The notes under the pieces: model-generated
Databases searched by the model: none
Told to the model about the DNA's origin: nothing
What the model saw: the letters and a program-made list of their open reading frames with translations, nothing else
Shown here: piece by piece, positions 7,951-29,680 of the stretch
Layout: every line of letters begins with the position of its first letter
Position numbering within the stretch: position 1 is the first letter of the stretch
Made by a program: the position numbers and the translations under genes
NCBI RefSeq assembly: GCF_003050935.1
Contig: NZ_QAOX01000003.1
Coordinates: 1 to 64,000, forward strand
Source: Luteibacter sp. OK325
GTDB lineage: Bacteria > Pseudomonadota > Gammaproteobacteria > Xanthomonadales > Rhodanobacteraceae
DNA length: 64,000 nt
Reading direction: 5' to 3'

Positions 7951-8616
7951 TCATGCGATGTCCCGCGGCACCATGTAGCCGAAGCCGCGAACGGTCTGGA
8001 TGGCGTCCGGGCTGAGCTTCCGTCGCAGTGAATGGACAAGTACCTCGAGCGCGTTCGGGCTCACCTCGGATTCCATCCCGTACACCGAGCCCTCGATCGA
8101 CTCGCGGCGGACGATCTTGCCCTGACGCTCCATCAGCAGGCGCAGCAGCGCGAATTCGCGCCGGGTCAACTCGACGCGACGCTCCTGGTACATGACCTCG
8201 AGCGAACTCAGGTTGAGCGACAGCGAGCCTGATTCCAGCTGATTGTCCGCCAGGCCCTGGGCACGACGGGCCAGCGAGCGGATACGCGCCGCGAGTTCAT
8301 CGAGGTGAAACGGCTTGGTCATGTAGTCGTCCGCGCCGGCATCGAGCCCTTGCACGCGGGATTCGACGCTGTCGCGTGCCGTCATGACCAGGATCGGCGT
8401 CTTGACCTTCAGCCGGCGGGCTTCAGTGATCACCTCGATGCCGTCCTTGCCGGGCAGTCCCAGATCCAGGAGGACGAGGTCGACGGACTGGCCACGGAGA
8501 GCCTCGAGCCCTTCCGCGCCGGTACGCAGCCAGGTGACCGTATAGGCAAGATGTTCCAACGCGCGCTTGATGGCGGCGCCTAGCCGGATGTCGTCCTCGA
8601 CTACGATGATGTTCAC
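7951..8616 (-). CDS. OmpR-family response regulator (QseB/PmrA-like), no linked kinase
   Basis: A 221-residue DNA-binding regulator: receiver domain (residues 1-120) with acidic pocket Glu7/Asp8/Asp9, phosphoacceptor Asp51 in 'VLLDLGLPGKDG' and Lys101 in 'MTKPF'; then a winged-helix domain with 'LTRREFALLRLLMERQGKIV' and 'VHSLRRKL...TVRGFGYM'. Close in style to QseB/PmrA. Usually such genes are followed by a histidine kinase; here the next gene is the TolC-like channel and no kinase occurs in the window. It probably controls the efflux operon from its own promoter. A direct repeat at 8714-8730 is a candidate binding site. Confidence 0.92.
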   Translation of the reverse strand: MNIIVVEDDIRLGAAIKRALEHLAYTVTWLRTGAEGLEALRGQSVDLVLLDLGLPGKDGIEVITEARRLKVKTPILVMTARDSVESRVQGLDAGADDYMTKPFHLDELAARIRSLARRAQGLADNQLESGSLSLNLSSLEVMYQERRVELTRREFALLRLLMERQGKIVRRESIEGSVYGMESEVSPNALEVLVHSLRRKLSPDAIQTVRGFGYMVPRDIA

Positions 8617-24600: not shown

Positions 24601-25455
24601 TCAGAAGCGGAAGCGGACGTACGCAGCCGGTCCGTTGAGCTTCATGTCGAGGTCGAGGTCGTACTGCCGCTTGTCCTGGTTGAGCTTGATCTTCGTATAC
24701 GCGTATTCCGCGCCGAAGCCCACGTTCTGCCATGGGAACCACTCGACACCCAGCGCGGCGTCGAAGATGTGGCCATTCAGCGTGCCGCCGTTCTTCTTCA
24801 CGCCGGAGGCATTGAAATACATGCGCCACTGCTCATTGAACGCATGGCGCCAGCCGATCTGCAGGTTGGGCGCCCAGGCGCTGGTGTTCGTGCTCGCGCC
24901 CTGGGAGACCGTGTTGCCGTTGACCGTCGCATCGCCGTAAATGCTGGCGTGCACCTTGTAGTAAGCCGCACCCAGGCCCACGCCGAACACGTCGTCGCCC
25001 GTGCCGAACCACCACTTGTAAGCAGCGCTGCCAAAGGTGAACTTCAGGTCGCCCTTCACGAGCGCGGTGGCGTCGATCGGCTGGCCGAGGAAGTCGATCG
25101 ACTCATCGAGCGTCTTCGACTGCGACCGGTTCACCTCGTAATAGTCGAAGGTGAAGCCCTGATGCTCGCCGATCAGGAAGTCCAGGCGTGCGCGCGGAAC
25201 GGTCTTGTGCTTCTTGAAGTCGAGATCGTTCTCGAGGTTCACGTTGCCGCTGCTGTTGAGAATGGGCGTCTTCGCGCCGATATTGGTGTCGTTGCTGGTG
25301 TAGTAACCACCGAGCCAGAGGCTGATGTTGTCCAGTGCCGGCGACTGGGATTTCTTGTTGCTGTCCTGCGCATGCGCGGTGGCACCGAAGACAGCGAGTG
25401 TGGCGATTGCGAGGCCCGCGGTGGCCTTGCCGAAACGATAATGACGGTTGCGCAT
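24601..25455 (-). CDS. outer-membrane beta-barrel protein of unknown function
   Basis: A 284-residue exported protein from the ATG at 25455 (GGGAG upstream). Signal peptide ends near AHAQ (residue 30). The rest is alternating amphipathic strands rich in Tyr, Trp and Gly and ends in '...AAYVRFRF' with a terminal Phe, the usual signal for barrel insertion. Segments such as 'LSIWLGGYYTSNDTNIG'-style strand 1 and 'FGSAAYKWWFGTGDDVFGVGLGAAYYKVHAS' point to an 8-12-strand barrel. No family is recognised with certainty. It has its own terminator and a 140-base gap from the Fap-like operon upstream, so it is probably a separate unit. Confidence 0.7.
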   Translation of the reverse strand: MRNRHYRFGKATAGLAIATLAVFGATAHAQDSNKKSQSPALDNISLWLGGYYTSNDTNIGAKTPILNSSGNVNLENDLDFKKHKTVPRARLDFLIGEHQGFTFDYYEVNRSQSKTLDESIDFLGQPIDATALVKGDLKFTFGSAAYKWWFGTGDDVFGVGLGAAYYKVHASIYGDATVNGNTVSQGASTNTSAWAPNLQIGWRHAFNEQWRMYFNASGVKKNGGTLNGHIFDAALGVEWFPWQNVGFGAEYAYTKIKLNQDKRQYDLDLDMKLNGPAAYVRFRF

Positions 25456-25596
25456 GTGCGTGAAACTCCCTGCCAAGGTTTTTTGTTTTTGATCGAACCC
25501 CCATCGAAAGGTTAACGAACGAACATGTGTGCATCGCGTGCACGCAAAATCGCGCGTGTTTGAAACGCGTTCAGCGTAGTGAATGAATTGTGTGCG

Positions 25597-27003
25597 TCAG
25601 AGCGTGATCGGTACACGCACCGTAATCGTCGTATCCGGCGTGTCGCGAGTGACACCAACACCGAGCGTCACATTCAACGTTTCTTTTTCGTTGAAGCGAT
25701 ACGAACCGCCGATCAGCAATTGCCCCAGCGTCGAACGCGCGGACCCCGGCAGCGAATCGCCATTCTGTGACGTGCGTCCGACGAAAGCCTGGTCGTAGCC
25801 GATGCTGATCGACGCCTTTTCGTTGAGCGAAAGGCCCATGCCGATACTGATATCGGCAATGTCACCGGCCTTGATGTCGCCGAGGAACTGCTTGCCGGCA
25901 CCCAATACGTTACGACTGACATTCTTGCGTTCAAAGTTATGCAGATAGCTCAGGTTGCCGAAGAAAACGACGGGGTCCGACGGATACAACCAGGTCACGC
26001 CCGCCTGTGCCGAGTAAAAACCGGTACCGGTCGGGCTCTGCAATGGCAGGCCGGTGCCGGTGAAGTTCTCAAGGCAGCGAGTGACGCAATCGCTGGTGAC
26101 TTCGAACGGATCGCGACCCGTCCGCGATTTGGCACGGAACCAGCCGACGTAATAGGGCTTGTCCGCGCCGCCGTCGTTGAGCTGGTAGCGCAACGTGGCT
26201 TCGACGTCGCCGATACCCTTGCCGCTGGTGGTGAACAGATTGTCCTGTGCGGTGCCGGTGAAGATTTCGCGACTGATGGTGTCGGTATGGTTGCTGACAT
26301 ACGGAACACGGATTTCGAGTTCCATCCGATTGGTCAGGCCATAGCGGAACGCCAGTGCGCCGGTCTGCGTCGTCGTCTTCACCTGTCGCACGTCGACAAG
26401 GCCGATCAGGATGGCCGGGATCACCGTGTAGCCAACGAGCGCCACGCGGTCACTCGACGAATAGCCGTACTGGTAGGACGGCTCGATAATGAGCTTGCCT
26501 TTGGGCGTGAGCACGCCAGGCTGGTCGAAGATCGGTGCGACTTCCGGCGGACGGTCGTCCTGCTCGGGCCGCTTGCCGACCGGCCGCGTGGCGACCACGG
26601 GTTGCGATGCCTGTGCCGGTGGCGCGCCCGGCGCCGGTGTACCCGGGGTTTCGTCCTGTGGTGGCGCCGTTTGCGTACCGGCTACGGCCGCGGAGCCGCC
26701 GCGAGCCTCCTCCAGCGCATTCATGCCGATGGCCTTGCGCAGGTCGTTGTACTGCACTTCCTGCGACGCAAGCTCGCGCTTCATCTGCTCGAGCTCGGCG
26801 AGCTGTTCGGCCATCTTGCTGCGCATCGCGTCGATTCGTCGTCCCTGCGCCTCGATTTTCTCGCGTATGGCCGGATCGACCGTGCTACTGCTCGCCGCGC
26901 TGGCATCCTGCGCCAGGCACGCCCCGATCCACATGGGGAGCGTCGCCAGCGCAAGTGCACCCGCACACGTTCTTGCCTGCATCACCCTGCCGTTGCGATA
27001 CAT
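25597..27003 (-). CDS. fapF: FapF-like outer-membrane channel
   Basis: A 468-residue outer-membrane protein. It has a signal peptide (to about residue 32), a coiled-coil segment (about 44-95, 'IREKIEAQGRRIDAMRSKM' onward), a Pro/Ala linker (about 105-155), and then a barrel beginning 'GVLTPKGKLIIEPSYQYGYSSSDRVALVGYT'-type strands and ending 'TITVRVPITL'. This order, with helix plug then barrel and the 'LTPKG...EPS.QY' block, matches FapF, the trimeric channel that secretes amyloid subunits in Pseudomonas. It is last in a five-gene operon and starts 2 bases after the preceding stop. The family is often labelled simply 'transporter'. Confidence 0.78.
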   Translation of the reverse strand: MYRNGRVMQARTCAGALALATLPMWIGACLAQDASAASSSTVDPAIREKIEAQGRRIDAMRSKMAEQLAELEQMKRELASQEVQYNDLRKAIGMNALEEARGGSAAVAGTQTAPPQDETPGTPAPGAPPAQASQPVVATRPVGKRPEQDDRPPEVAPIFDQPGVLTPKGKLIIEPSYQYGYSSSDRVALVGYTVIPAILIGLVDVRQVKTTTQTGALAFRYGLTNRMELEIRVPYVSNHTDTISREIFTGTAQDNLFTTSGKGIGDVEATLRYQLNDGGADKPYYVGWFRAKSRTGRDPFEVTSDCVTRCLENFTGTGLPLQSPTGTGFYSAQAGVTWLYPSDPVVFFGNLSYLHNFERKNVSRNVLGAGKQFLGDIKAGDIADISIGMGLSLNEKASISIGYDQAFVGRTSQNGDSLPGSARSTLGQLLIGGSYRFNEKETLNVTLGVGVTRDTPDTTITVRVPITL

Positions 27004-27005
27004 GC

Positions 27006-27602
27006 TTAATTCCCCCGGAACTGGACCACCGCGTCGTTAACCGATTCCGCAACTCGCATGTTCTGAAGCATGCGTGCCGTATTCACTGACGCGTCGATCG
27101 TGGTGGTGGCCGTGATGGCCTGGTTGTCTAACGAGTTCTGGATGACCAGACCCGGTGTGATCGAGGCGGGCAAACTGACCGACGCCGCGCTTTGCGCAGC
27201 CTGTGCGGGCCCACTCATGGCCGGCACCGACGCGGCGGACTGCGCCGTTGCGCCTGCCTGCGCCACGTTGGTCGGTGCCAGCGCCGCCGCGTTGACCGTG
27301 TTGTTGCCTACGTTGATCACGGTGGTCTGCAACGCGCTCTGCAGCTGCGCCGCCTGCTGGGCCGTGATGTTGGCGATGTCGGGTACCGAAATGGTGGTCC
27401 GCATCGCCTCCATGCCGTTGATCAACACCGTTCGCTCCAGGGCGAACGAGGCGCGCAGGTTGTCACCGAAGTCGTAGCCGCCGCGGATCTTGTCCAGCTG
27501 GGCGTCGGGTACCGCGTGATTGATCGGAAAGTCGGCCGCGTGGGCAGCGGCACAGGCGCCGCTGGCGATCACGGCGGCAAGAAGGATGGGGCGGGTTTTC
27601 AT
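27006..27602 (-). CDS. FapE-like exported protein with double-glycine motif
   Basis: A 198-residue protein with a Sec signal peptide (cleavage near HAAD, residue 22-23). Next comes 'VPDAQLDKIRGG' (Gly41-Gly42), very like the leader ends that C39 peptidases cut, then 'YDFGDNLRASFALERTVLINGMEAM' and an Ala/Gln/Asn-rich remainder with 'PGLVIQNSLDNQAITATTTIDASVN'. It holds the FapE position between the C39 peptidase and the channel and overlaps both neighbours closely (ATGA with fapD). FapE in Pseudomonas is a minor fibre component; the match here rests on gene order and composition more than on strong sequence identity. Confidence 0.6.
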   Translation of the reverse strand: MKTRPILLAAVIASGACAAAHAADFPINHAVPDAQLDKIRGGYDFGDNLRASFALERTVLINGMEAMRTTISVPDIANITAQQAAQLQSALQTTVINVGNNTVNAAALAPTNVAQAGATAQSAASVPAMSGPAQAAQSAASVSLPASITPGLVIQNSLDNQAITATTTIDASVNTARMLQNMRVAESVNDAVVQFRGN

Positions 27603-28282
27603 ATGTCCCCCGGTCCGCGCTTGGGCATGACGATCGGCCCGAGCCCATTACGCTCGATGCCTTCGGTGATCGGTGCCGCAGGAGCAACCGCCCAGTCGCG
27701 CGGACTGTTGAAAATGGCGCGGTCTCGCTCGTTGTGGATGACGAAGACGACGTGGTTGTTCCACATCGCATCAAAACGGCGCTTCGACATCGAACGGGTG
27801 CCCCGTGCAGGGTCGCCGACCAGCACACGGCCATTCTTGTAGCCCTTGATCACCACGAAATGGTGGTAGCCACGCTCATTGATCAACACGATGGCGGGAA
27901 TGCCTTCGTCGTCGAGCTTTTCCAGCGGCACGTCGAAGCCGTCGGCATCGAAGCCGCGCGATGCAAGGAACCGCTTGATGTCGAGCAGGGAAAAACCTTC
28001 CTTGCCGATCTTGGCGCGGTCGCCGTTGGTGAACATCACGTCGAATGCCGCCTGCTCGTCGATCGGGTAGCCGTACTGGTAGGTGAGCAGCGTGGCCACC
28101 GCGGCGGAGCCGCAGCTGAAATCGTACTTCTGTCGAATCGTGTTACGAAACCGCGCTTCCTTGAGGCTCGTCAGGTGTATCGGGTACGACGTACCCGGGC
28201 TGGTCTGCACCTCCGCCTTCATGGCGATCGCCGGCGTGGCGGCAAGCGCGAAAAGCAGGGCGGCGGCGCAGGCGAACCTCAC
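27599..28282 (-). CDS. fapD: FapD-like C39-family cysteine peptidase
   Basis: A 227-residue protein with an N-terminal signal peptide (cleavage near AIAM, residue 20) and a single C39 peptidase domain. Catalytic residues: Gln51 (oxyanion) and Cys57 in 'QKYDFSCGSA', His140/141 in 'RGYHHFVVIKGY' and Asp157 in 'VGDPARG'. There is no ABC transporter domain, so unlike bacteriocin exporters it should act in the periplasm. This is the FapD arrangement. Its ATG overlaps the stop of the upstream small gene, and its stop overlaps the next start, so all are translationally coupled. Likely substrates are the two neighbouring proteins with double-glycine motifs. Confidence 0.85.
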   Translation of the reverse strand: MRFACAAALLFALAATPAIAMKAEVQTSPGTSYPIHLTSLKEARFRNTIRQKYDFSCGSAAVATLLTYQYGYPIDEQAAFDVMFTNGDRAKIGKEGFSLLDIKRFLASRGFDADGFDVPLEKLDDEGIPAIVLINERGYHHFVVIKGYKNGRVLVGDPARGTRSMSKRRFDAMWNNHVVFVIHNERDRAIFNSPRDWAVAPAAPITEGIERNGLGPIVMPKRGPGDI

Positions 28283-28644
28283 GGATTCATCCTGATGTTG
28301 ACGATTGTCGCGTTCTGGATGAGCACGTTGTTGCCGGAATTCTGGATGACCGTCGGCAAGCCGGCGGAACTTCCGAACGCGCTACCGGAAACGATGTTGT
28401 TGCCGCTGAGATTGTCCTTCGCCTCGGTGTCGGACATCGTGCCGTTGAGGGTCTGGTTGTTGACGTTGTTGGTCGTGTTGGTACCGCCGCTCATGTCCTG
28501 CAACTGCTCGGATGGGGTCGCCACGCCGAACGATGGCGGAGGCGGTTCCTGTCCAGGGGGCGTGGCGTACGCGGCGGTGCTTACGCAAGCGGTGAAGATC
28601 GCCGCCAGCGCAACATGCGTACGGTGAATCCGGTGGTTCGGCAT
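28279..28644 (-). CDS. FapA-like small exported protein with double-glycine motif
   Basis: A 121-residue protein with a signal peptide (cleavage near AYAT, residue 27), a Pro-rich stretch, 'TPSEQLQDMSGG' (Gly53-Gly54; leader-like) and an Asn-rich C-terminal half, 'NNVNNQTLNGTMSDTEA' to 'GLPTVIQNSGNNVLIQNATIVNI'. The C-terminal block resembles that of FapA and echoes the C-terminus of the glycine-rich protein encoded upstream ('GISTFAQNSGAASLIQQGVNVQANL' region). The start at 28644 follows TGGAGAA; an upstream in-frame start would add residues without a signal peptide. It is probably an amyloid subunit or chaperone of the system. Confidence 0.62.
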   Translation of the reverse strand: MPNHRIHRTHVALAAIFTACVSTAAYATPPGQEPPPPSFGVATPSEQLQDMSGGTNTTNNVNNQTLNGTMSDTEAKDNLSGNNIVSGSAFGSSAGLPTVIQNSGNNVLIQNATIVNIRMNP

Positions 28645-28735: not shown

Positions 28736-29680
28736 TTACGGAGCGCCGCCCACGCTGAGGTTGGCCTGGACGTTCACGCCCTGCTGGATCAACGATGCCG
28801 CACCACTGTTCTGCGCGAAGGTGCTGATACCAGCTGCTCCACCGGCCGCGCTGCCCATGTTGTTGGACATGTCGAACGAACCCGCGTTGACGGAGTTCGC
28901 GCCGCCTGCACCGCCGGCACCACCGCCAGCACCCGTGCCCGCGCCGCCCGTGCCGTCGCCACCCGCCGCACCTGCTCCGCCTGCGCCGCCCGATGCAAGG
29001 GCTTCGCCGCCCGCGCCACCGGTAGAAGCACCGCCAGTCGCTGTCGCGGTCGCATCACCGGATGTGCCGGCGCCGCCCGTGCTGGCGCTTGCGCCACCCG
29101 TGCTGGCCGTCGAGCCTCCGGTCGGAGCACCACCACCGGCACCACGCGACCTGGCGTTGCCGCCGTCGCCCGAGGCGTCGCCGCCGTTGCCGTGCGCGCT
29201 GCCACCGGCCGATGCGGTCAGGGACCCGGCGCTACCGCTGTCTGAGTTGGCGTCGCCACCGACAGCACCACGAGCACGCGCGTTGCCGCCATCACCACCG
29301 GATCCGCCTTTGCCGCCAGATCCTTTGGCGCCGTAGCCATCGCCACCCGAGCCGCCTTTACCGCCATTGGAGTTGCCCCAGTTCGAGGCGACGTTGCCGT
29401 TACCGTATGTCGTGACGCCGCTCACCGTTCCGTTCAGGACGTTATTGGCGATGGCGTTGGTGGTGTTGAACGATCCGGACGTGGTTTTCGAATGAGTCGA
29501 GCTGTCGGCCCAGGAATGGGTCGAGCTGTCTGCATAACTCGAGCTGTCTGAGTACTGCACGGCAATCGATTTACGTTGGGCCGATGCGCCTGACGATCCC
29601 GTCTGGGTATCGTCGGCCATGGCCGGCAGTGCGAATCCGATAGCGAGGCAGATCGCCGTGGCGATAAGAGTCTTACGCAT
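28736..29680 (-). CDS. glycine-rich exported protein, putative fibre subunit of the Fap-like system
   Basis: A 314-residue protein from the ATG at 29680 (AGGAGA upstream). Signal peptide to about residue 22 (ALPAMADD). Residues 30-100 are Ser/Asn/Thr-rich ('YADSSTHSWADSSTHSK', 'GSFNTTNAIANNVLNGTVSG'); about 105-265 are a low-complexity run of GG, GGA and GGDG blocks; the end (about 268-314) has 'GSFDMSNNMGS' and 'ISTFAQNSGAASLIQQ'. The two GSF(N/D) segments form an imperfect repeat bracketing the Gly-rich core. It is the first gene of the operon and takes the place of FapB/FapC, although the Gly-rich core is unlike their Asn/Gln-rich repeats. Fibre formation is inference. Confidence 0.6.
   Translation of the reverse strand: MRKTLIATAICLAIGFALPAMADDTQTGSSGASAQRKSIAVQYSDSSSYADSSTHSWADSSTHSKTTSGSFNTTNAIANNVLNGTVSGVTTYGNGNVASNWGNSNGGKGGSGGDGYGAKGSGGKGGSGGDGGNARARGAVGGDANSDSGSAGSLTASAGGSAHGNGGDASGDGGNARSRGAGGGAPTGGSTASTGGASASTGGAGTSGDATATATGGASTGGAGGEALASGGAGGAGAAGGDGTGGAGTGAGGGAGGAGGANSVNAGSFDMSNNMGSAAGGAAGISTFAQNSGAASLIQQGVNVQANLSVGGAP

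Follow-up and report, generated by a model that had tools for sequence, protein, structure and literature searches.

Which proteins does a periplasmic C39 peptidase act on, and at which residue? The question is raised by an operon of Luteibacter sp. OK325 in which a FapD-like C39 peptidase with its own signal peptide is encoded between two other exported proteins. FapD is essential for export of the Pseudomonas biofilm amyloid and has no agreed target. It was recognized as C39-like in 2013 (PMC3684753), and changing its active-site Cys in Pseudomonas blocks secretion of FapC (Rouse and colleagues 2017, PMC5557850). In mass spectrometry, FapE alone lacked N-terminal peptides, FapA to FapD being covered throughout (PMC5557850). 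That FapD may process FapE has been put forward in print as a hypothesis (PMC5557850, PMC6173800). Candidate sites of the GG or GA type have been suggested for FapE or FapF, yet the Fap proteins were said to lack a canonical C39 sequence (PMC5557850), and GG motifs in FapF have been pointed out (PMC5557850, PMC5135000). A 2018 review called the FapD substrate undetermined, raised a chaperone role for the protein and noted fapD-fapF pairs in five further phyla (PMC6173800); we found no later paper in the open-access literature that settles the target. In the window analyzed here, meaning the whole stretch of 64,000 nucleotides, a conserved box gives the neighboring periplasmic C39 peptidase a specific candidate target.

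Organization of the Operon

Five genes lie in order on the minus strand, and the last four of them, from the FapA-position gene to the barrel gene, overlap or almost abut. The features are as follows.

28736..29680, minus strand: Gly-rich exported protein, 314 aa, with a C-terminal QNSG element and without leader box
28279..28644, minus strand: FapA-position exported protein, 121 aa, with signal peptide, leader box and QNSG element
28483..28518, minus strand: TPSEQLQDMSGG, the leader box of the FapA-position protein (residues 43-54), with its cut predicted after G54 and GG in 83/96 homologs
27599..28282, minus strand: periplasmic C39 peptidase, FapD-like, 227 aa, GTG start (Pfam PF03412, invariant Q/C/H/D, model compared with C39 structures)
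28112-28114, 27860-27862 and 27812-27814, minus strand: peptidase codons Cys57, His141 and Asp157
27006..27602, minus strand: FapE-like exported protein, 198 aa, with signal peptide, leader box, beta domain and QNSL element; 105 non-redundant homologs beside the peptidase
27477..27512, minus strand: VPDAQLDKIRGG, the leader box of the FapE-like protein (residues 31-42), with a helix predicted at 33-39, a cut predicted after G42 and RGG in 105/105
25597..27003, minus strand: FapF-like outer-membrane barrel with N-terminal coiled coil, 468 aa (NCBIfam FapF 145.7 bits, cut-off 700)
26695..26730, minus strand: possible third leader-like box IGMNALEEARGG, weak, residues 92-103 of the barrel, at the end of the coiled coil

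The Gly-rich protein is a putative fiber or surface subunit. A C-terminal element resembling TVIQNSxxNxxIQxxTxIN is common to the end of this protein (28736-29680), the FapA-position protein (28285-28458) and the FapE-like protein (27012-27584), and may be a shared assembly or fiber element. The barrel gene is closely followed by a gene (24601-25476, minus strand) for a probable outer-membrane protein whose start resembles a signal peptide, and which may or may not belong to the operon.

Named GTDB contigs and whole genomes at family, class and phylum level supplied relatives of the peptidase, whose adjoining genes were then read. Among these relatives the operon is widespread in Xanthomonadales and Burkholderiales and occurs in other Gammaproteobacteria as well. 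Burkholderia cepacia LK29 (locus L128) has an operon of the window type; the B. cepacia complex was reported to be without fap genes (Dueholm 2013, PMC3792158).

A search of the Luteibacter genome for paralogs of the FapE-like protein found none besides the operon copy, the FapE-like profile otherwise touching only the QNSG element of the FapA-position protein (E 0.001). No Pfam or NCBIfam label fits the FapE-like protein; the lantibiotic leader models PF04604 and PF16934 matched single members at E of ~0.1, and these matches were set aside. Fold comparison of the mature protein gave a best Z of only 2.9.

Two Leader Boxes behind Signal Peptides

An earlier note on this DNA had pointed to PSEQLQDMSGG in the protein at 28279-28644 and PDAQLDKIRGG in the protein at 27006-27602 (both minus strand). 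The motifs are present as residues 44-54 and 32-42, respectively, and align without gaps, with P, Q, L, G, G and a hydrophobic residue at position -4 in common. Both lie behind Sec-type signal peptides with likely cuts, by inspection, after AYA27 (FapA-position) and AHA22 (FapE-like), and the C39 protein at 27599-28282 (minus strand) likewise begins with a signal peptide by inspection, as had been claimed. The FapE-like box in the window satisfies all positions of a double-glycine leader (hydrophobic -12, -7 and -4, followed by GG), and the FapA-position box has Thr at -12.

Conservation of the GG, whose absence the earlier note had named as one result that would refute its proposal, was strong for the FapE-like protein and good for the FapA-position protein. 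Loci were counted after peptidases >92% identical had been dropped. The pattern [L/M]-x3-R-G-G was present in 105/105 non-redundant FapE-like homologs, one for every locus of this type that yielded a FapE-like protein, and Phe follows at +1 in 93 of them. By position, V/L/I/M/F occurs at -12 in 94/105 and at -4 in 73/105, L/M at -7 in 105/105 and GG in 105/105. An alignment of 65 FapE-like sequences (321 columns, 26% mean identity) has only five invariant columns, R40, G41, G42, Q155 and N156. FapA-position homologs have L/M-x3-x-G-G in 83/96; all 83 of these boxes have L/M at -7 and 73 have V/L/I/M/F at -12, and the residue before GG (-3) is Arg in 53 and Ser in 26. The exceptions come mainly from distant gammaproteobacteria in which the second Gly is lost (RGR, RAK, SGR).

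The strict box was found in 9/1156 other genes of these loci (0.8%) and in 2/196 of the Sec-like subset (1.0%), these background genes having been called crudely as non-overlapping long ORFs. It was also sought in the Gly-rich neighbor family and found in 0/93 members, although these average ~28 GG dipeptides each; glycine content is therefore no explanation for the box. A chance GG arising from glycine richness was thus ruled out by the Gly-rich family together with the 0.8% background. As judged from sequence, the box is far from chance and is common to two otherwise different proteins of one operon.

The C39 Peptidase and Proposed Leader Recognition

The neighboring enzyme scored 73.8 bits against Pfam PF03412 (cut-off 22). 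Its nucleophile is Cys57, as the earlier note held, and Gln51, His141 and Asp157 are likewise invariant in an alignment of 19 peptidase homologs. The structural model, with pLDDT >90 over the core, matches the structures of PCAT1, ComA and the LahT leader complex (6mpz), and a sequence-profile search with the peptidase returned the same entries. The window protein is therefore a family C39 peptidase with intact catalytic residues, for which proteolysis at a double-Gly site is predicted.

Three further C39 domains occur in the same genome (G000:C8:3316-3702, C2:758915-759292 and C2:401454-401816; loci L001, L002 and L004). They sit in open frames of 733-799 residues, as would suit ABC exporters with a peptidase domain, and the genome thus appears to encode C39 enzymes for both cytosol and periplasm.

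Recognition by exporter C39 peptidases depends on hydrophobic residues at -12, -7 and -4, with the cut falling behind GG, GA or GS (PMC10885120). The ComA leader has been described with Leu-12, Glu-8 and Leu-7, and in the LahT co-crystal leader residues -4 to -11 form a two-turn helix and residues -1 to -3 are extended (PMC6363468). The AlphaFold model of the window FapE-like protein, which is moderate evidence at a mean pLDDT of 71, has a helix at residues 33-39 (-10 to -4), a low-confidence linker after the GG (residues 41-50, mean pLDDT 58) and a beta domain from residue 51. The spacing of the box (-12, -7, -4, GG) and its predicted helix equal those of the LahT-bound leader. The FapE-like family thus has the hydrophobic -12, -7 and -4 residues and the GG of a double-glycine leader. 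Its placement is not the classical one, at the extreme N-terminus and cut in the cytosol by the exporter's C39 domain, because the box lies behind a signal peptide and the C39 protein is stand-alone with a signal peptide of its own.

Relation to Fap and Fil

The labels FapA-like and FapE-like used in the earlier note proved loose. The window C39 protein scored 138.5 bits against NCBIfam FapD (cut-off 330) and the barrel 145.7 bits against NCBIfam FapF (cut-off 700), and the FapE-like protein had no NCBIfam FapE match, whereas a Pseudomonas control locus (L171) passed the cut-offs with 420 for FapD, 345 for FapE and 763 for FapF. One and the same script counted the FapB/FapC repeat G-x4-N-x3-G-x6-N 0 times in the window proteins and three times in each of Pseudomonas FapB and FapC. 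With no FapB/FapC repeats and scores far under the Fap cut-offs, the window operon is a sister system to Fap and not Fap in the strict sense.

A homologous box is present in genuine FapE; that of locus L171 reads LKDSEMAELRGRY. Pattern scanning of 43 loci, nine of which gave no box, yielded 29 distinct boxes in genuine FapE (NCBIfam FapE model) from Pseudomonas and relatives. All 29 are hydrophobic at -12, -7 and -4, 23/29 have Glu at -8, and all 29 end R-G-[R/K]-[Y/F], never GG. In profile-profile alignment the two FapE types matched over the leader box and the following strand (P-value 8e-06, probability 84%), and with the box removed nothing significant was left. In the Pseudomonas Fap operon that was read, the homologous box occurs in FapE but in none of FapA, FapB and FapC, a pattern that agrees with the published loss of N-terminal peptides from FapE only, recorded in a different strain.

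The GG and R/K box types split cleanly on a tree of 67 peptidases, in which a single branch (99/92) separates 43/43 of the RGG-type enzymes tested from the Fap and Fil enzymes. The peptidases of loci L194 and L195 were placed among the Fap peptidases. Against NCBIfam FilB, the window C39 protein scored 135.2 bits (cut-off 475). Genomes of the Pseudomonas family and other gammaproteobacteria (loci L190, L191, L192 and L193) have a second C39 peptidase that forms its own clade; no FapE-like protein was seen beside it in the loci inspected, and in L192 a FilC-like barrel follows directly. Two tandem Fap-type C39 genes occur at L188:3967-10423, each followed by its own FapE, and the small protein encoded between the tandem C39 genes (8001-8444) is also boxed, LEDGDLASIRGRF.

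Proposed Maturation and Alternatives

We propose that, after Sec cleavage, the FapD-like enzyme removes a propeptide of 20-27 residues at RGG or SGG, and give this a probability of about 0.7. Each substrate would cross the inner membrane by Sec and lose its signal peptide, leaving a propeptide of ~20 residues on the FapE-like protein and ~27 residues on the FapA-position protein. The short helix of the propeptide (hydrophobic -12, -7 and often -4) would dock in the groove of the free periplasmic C39 peptidase and bring the Gly-Gly into the active site, where Cys57 would cut after the second Gly. The mature protein would then be freed for assembly at, or export through, the FapF-like barrel, and the cut most likely licenses subunits for secretion or assembly. 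Of the two-step maturation suggested in the earlier note, the recognition half has gained ground: the box fits recognition as a C39 leader in its conservation, its spacing and its predicted helix, and so does the fold of the peptidase. The cleavage itself is predicted.

Several observations sit uneasily with a cut at GG. Genuine FapE has R or K at -1 in 29/29 distinct boxes, which the canonical C39 site disallows, so either the cut differs there, being shifted by one residue in either direction, or what is conserved is R-G-x-[F/Y] and not GG. In the FapE-like proteins +1 Phe (93/105) and -3 Arg (105/105) are stricter than a leader requires, -4 is hydrophobic in only 73/105, and the second Gly is lost in the FapA-position proteins of distant gammaproteobacteria. 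The published missing stretch of FapE, ~70 residues, is also longer than the proposed propeptide (PMC5557850). Some of these features would suit a box that is a docking or secretion signal, bound uncut by the C39 protein or by the barrel coiled coil in the manner of the inactive C39-like domains of some type I exporters. Fap-type FapE retains the entire box except the -1 Gly, both FapE types have the R-3 and aromatic +1 that lie outside the canonical requirement, and a chaperone role for FapD has been raised (PMC6173800). We consider this unlikely, since every aligned peptidase retains the Cys, His, Asp and Gln, the active-site Cys of Pseudomonas FapD is required for secretion (PMC5557850), and both Gly residues are strictly kept in the window-type FapE-like protein.

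It is less probable still that R-G-G-F is a structural element of the mature protein, a helix cap and turn before the first strand, with the peptidase cutting elsewhere. The +1 Phe and the subsequent G-x-x-x-SFG-I-x-R strand are conserved too, and the profile alignment of the two FapE types spans box and strand together; but the same box recurs in the unrelated FapA-position protein without such a strand after it, and the lowered pLDDT right after the GG suits a linker, not a core. The barrel is a very improbable main substrate, cut at the end of its coiled coil to alter the pore, with the other two boxes secondary. The window barrel does have IGMNALEEARGG, a copy that the earlier note missed and that is weaker than the other two; L-x3-R-[G/A] occurs in 45/60 barrels, and GG motifs in FapF have been noted (PMC5557850, PMC5135000). 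Yet RGG is present in only 14/60 barrels, -4 is hydrophobic in 9/45 boxes, the box is absent where the coiled coil is absent (L157, L159 and L166), and conservation is far below that of the FapE-like protein. As coiled-coil periodicity may produce the barrel box, we retain it as a weak lead only.

The proposal of propeptide removal has a wider form, which we hold at even odds: that a leader helix of the double-glycine type directs FapE-type proteins throughout Pseudomonadota, Pseudomonas FapE included, to FapD-type peptidases as their periplasmic substrates, and that the cut-site residue changed between Gly and Arg/Lys when the peptidase family divided, which would keep two parallel systems of one cell apart. 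That FapD processes FapE is not a wholly new idea; what is new is the box in genuine FapE, ending R-G-[R/K]. The Fap proteins had been described as having no canonical C39 site; the comparison nonetheless reveals a leader-like helix in Pseudomonas FapE. It also names an exact candidate site in FapE and predicts a second substrate, the FapA-position protein, in the sister system; no report of the cut site, the second substrate or the GG versus R/K split was found in the open-access literature. If the proposal is true, double-glycine maturation would reach beyond cytosolic ABC exporters to a step in the periplasm that follows Sec.

Comparison with Known Systems

The window system shares with the leaders of PCAT/AMS exporters (ComA, LahT, PCAT1) the hydrophobic -12, -7 and -4 residues, the cut-site GG, a helical leader, and the C39 fold and catalytic residues. 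It differs in that the peptidase is not fused to an ABC exporter and is proposed to act after Sec, and in that the box lies behind a signal peptide, with -3 a fixed Arg (FapE-like) or mostly Arg/Ser (FapA-position). PoyH, a stand-alone C1A leader protease, recognizes LDQAAGG at -7 to -1 (PMC10885120), a site near the L-D-x-x-R-G-G of the window FapE-like protein, but it belongs to another protease family and matures natural-product peptides.

With the putative pilus system FilB/FilC the operon has a C39 protein and a FapF-like barrel in common. The FilC-like Pseudomonas loci have their own peptidase clade, and in L192 the barrel gene comes directly after that for the peptidase with no FapE-like gene between. 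The likeness to Pseudomonas Fap (FapA-F) comprises a Sec-exported C39 peptidase, a FapE-like protein directly after it, a FapF-like coiled-coil barrel nearby, and a homologous box at the same place in FapE. The window system is set apart from Fap by a box ending in GG and not R/K, by a FapA-position protein that is boxed too, and by a separate peptidase clade.
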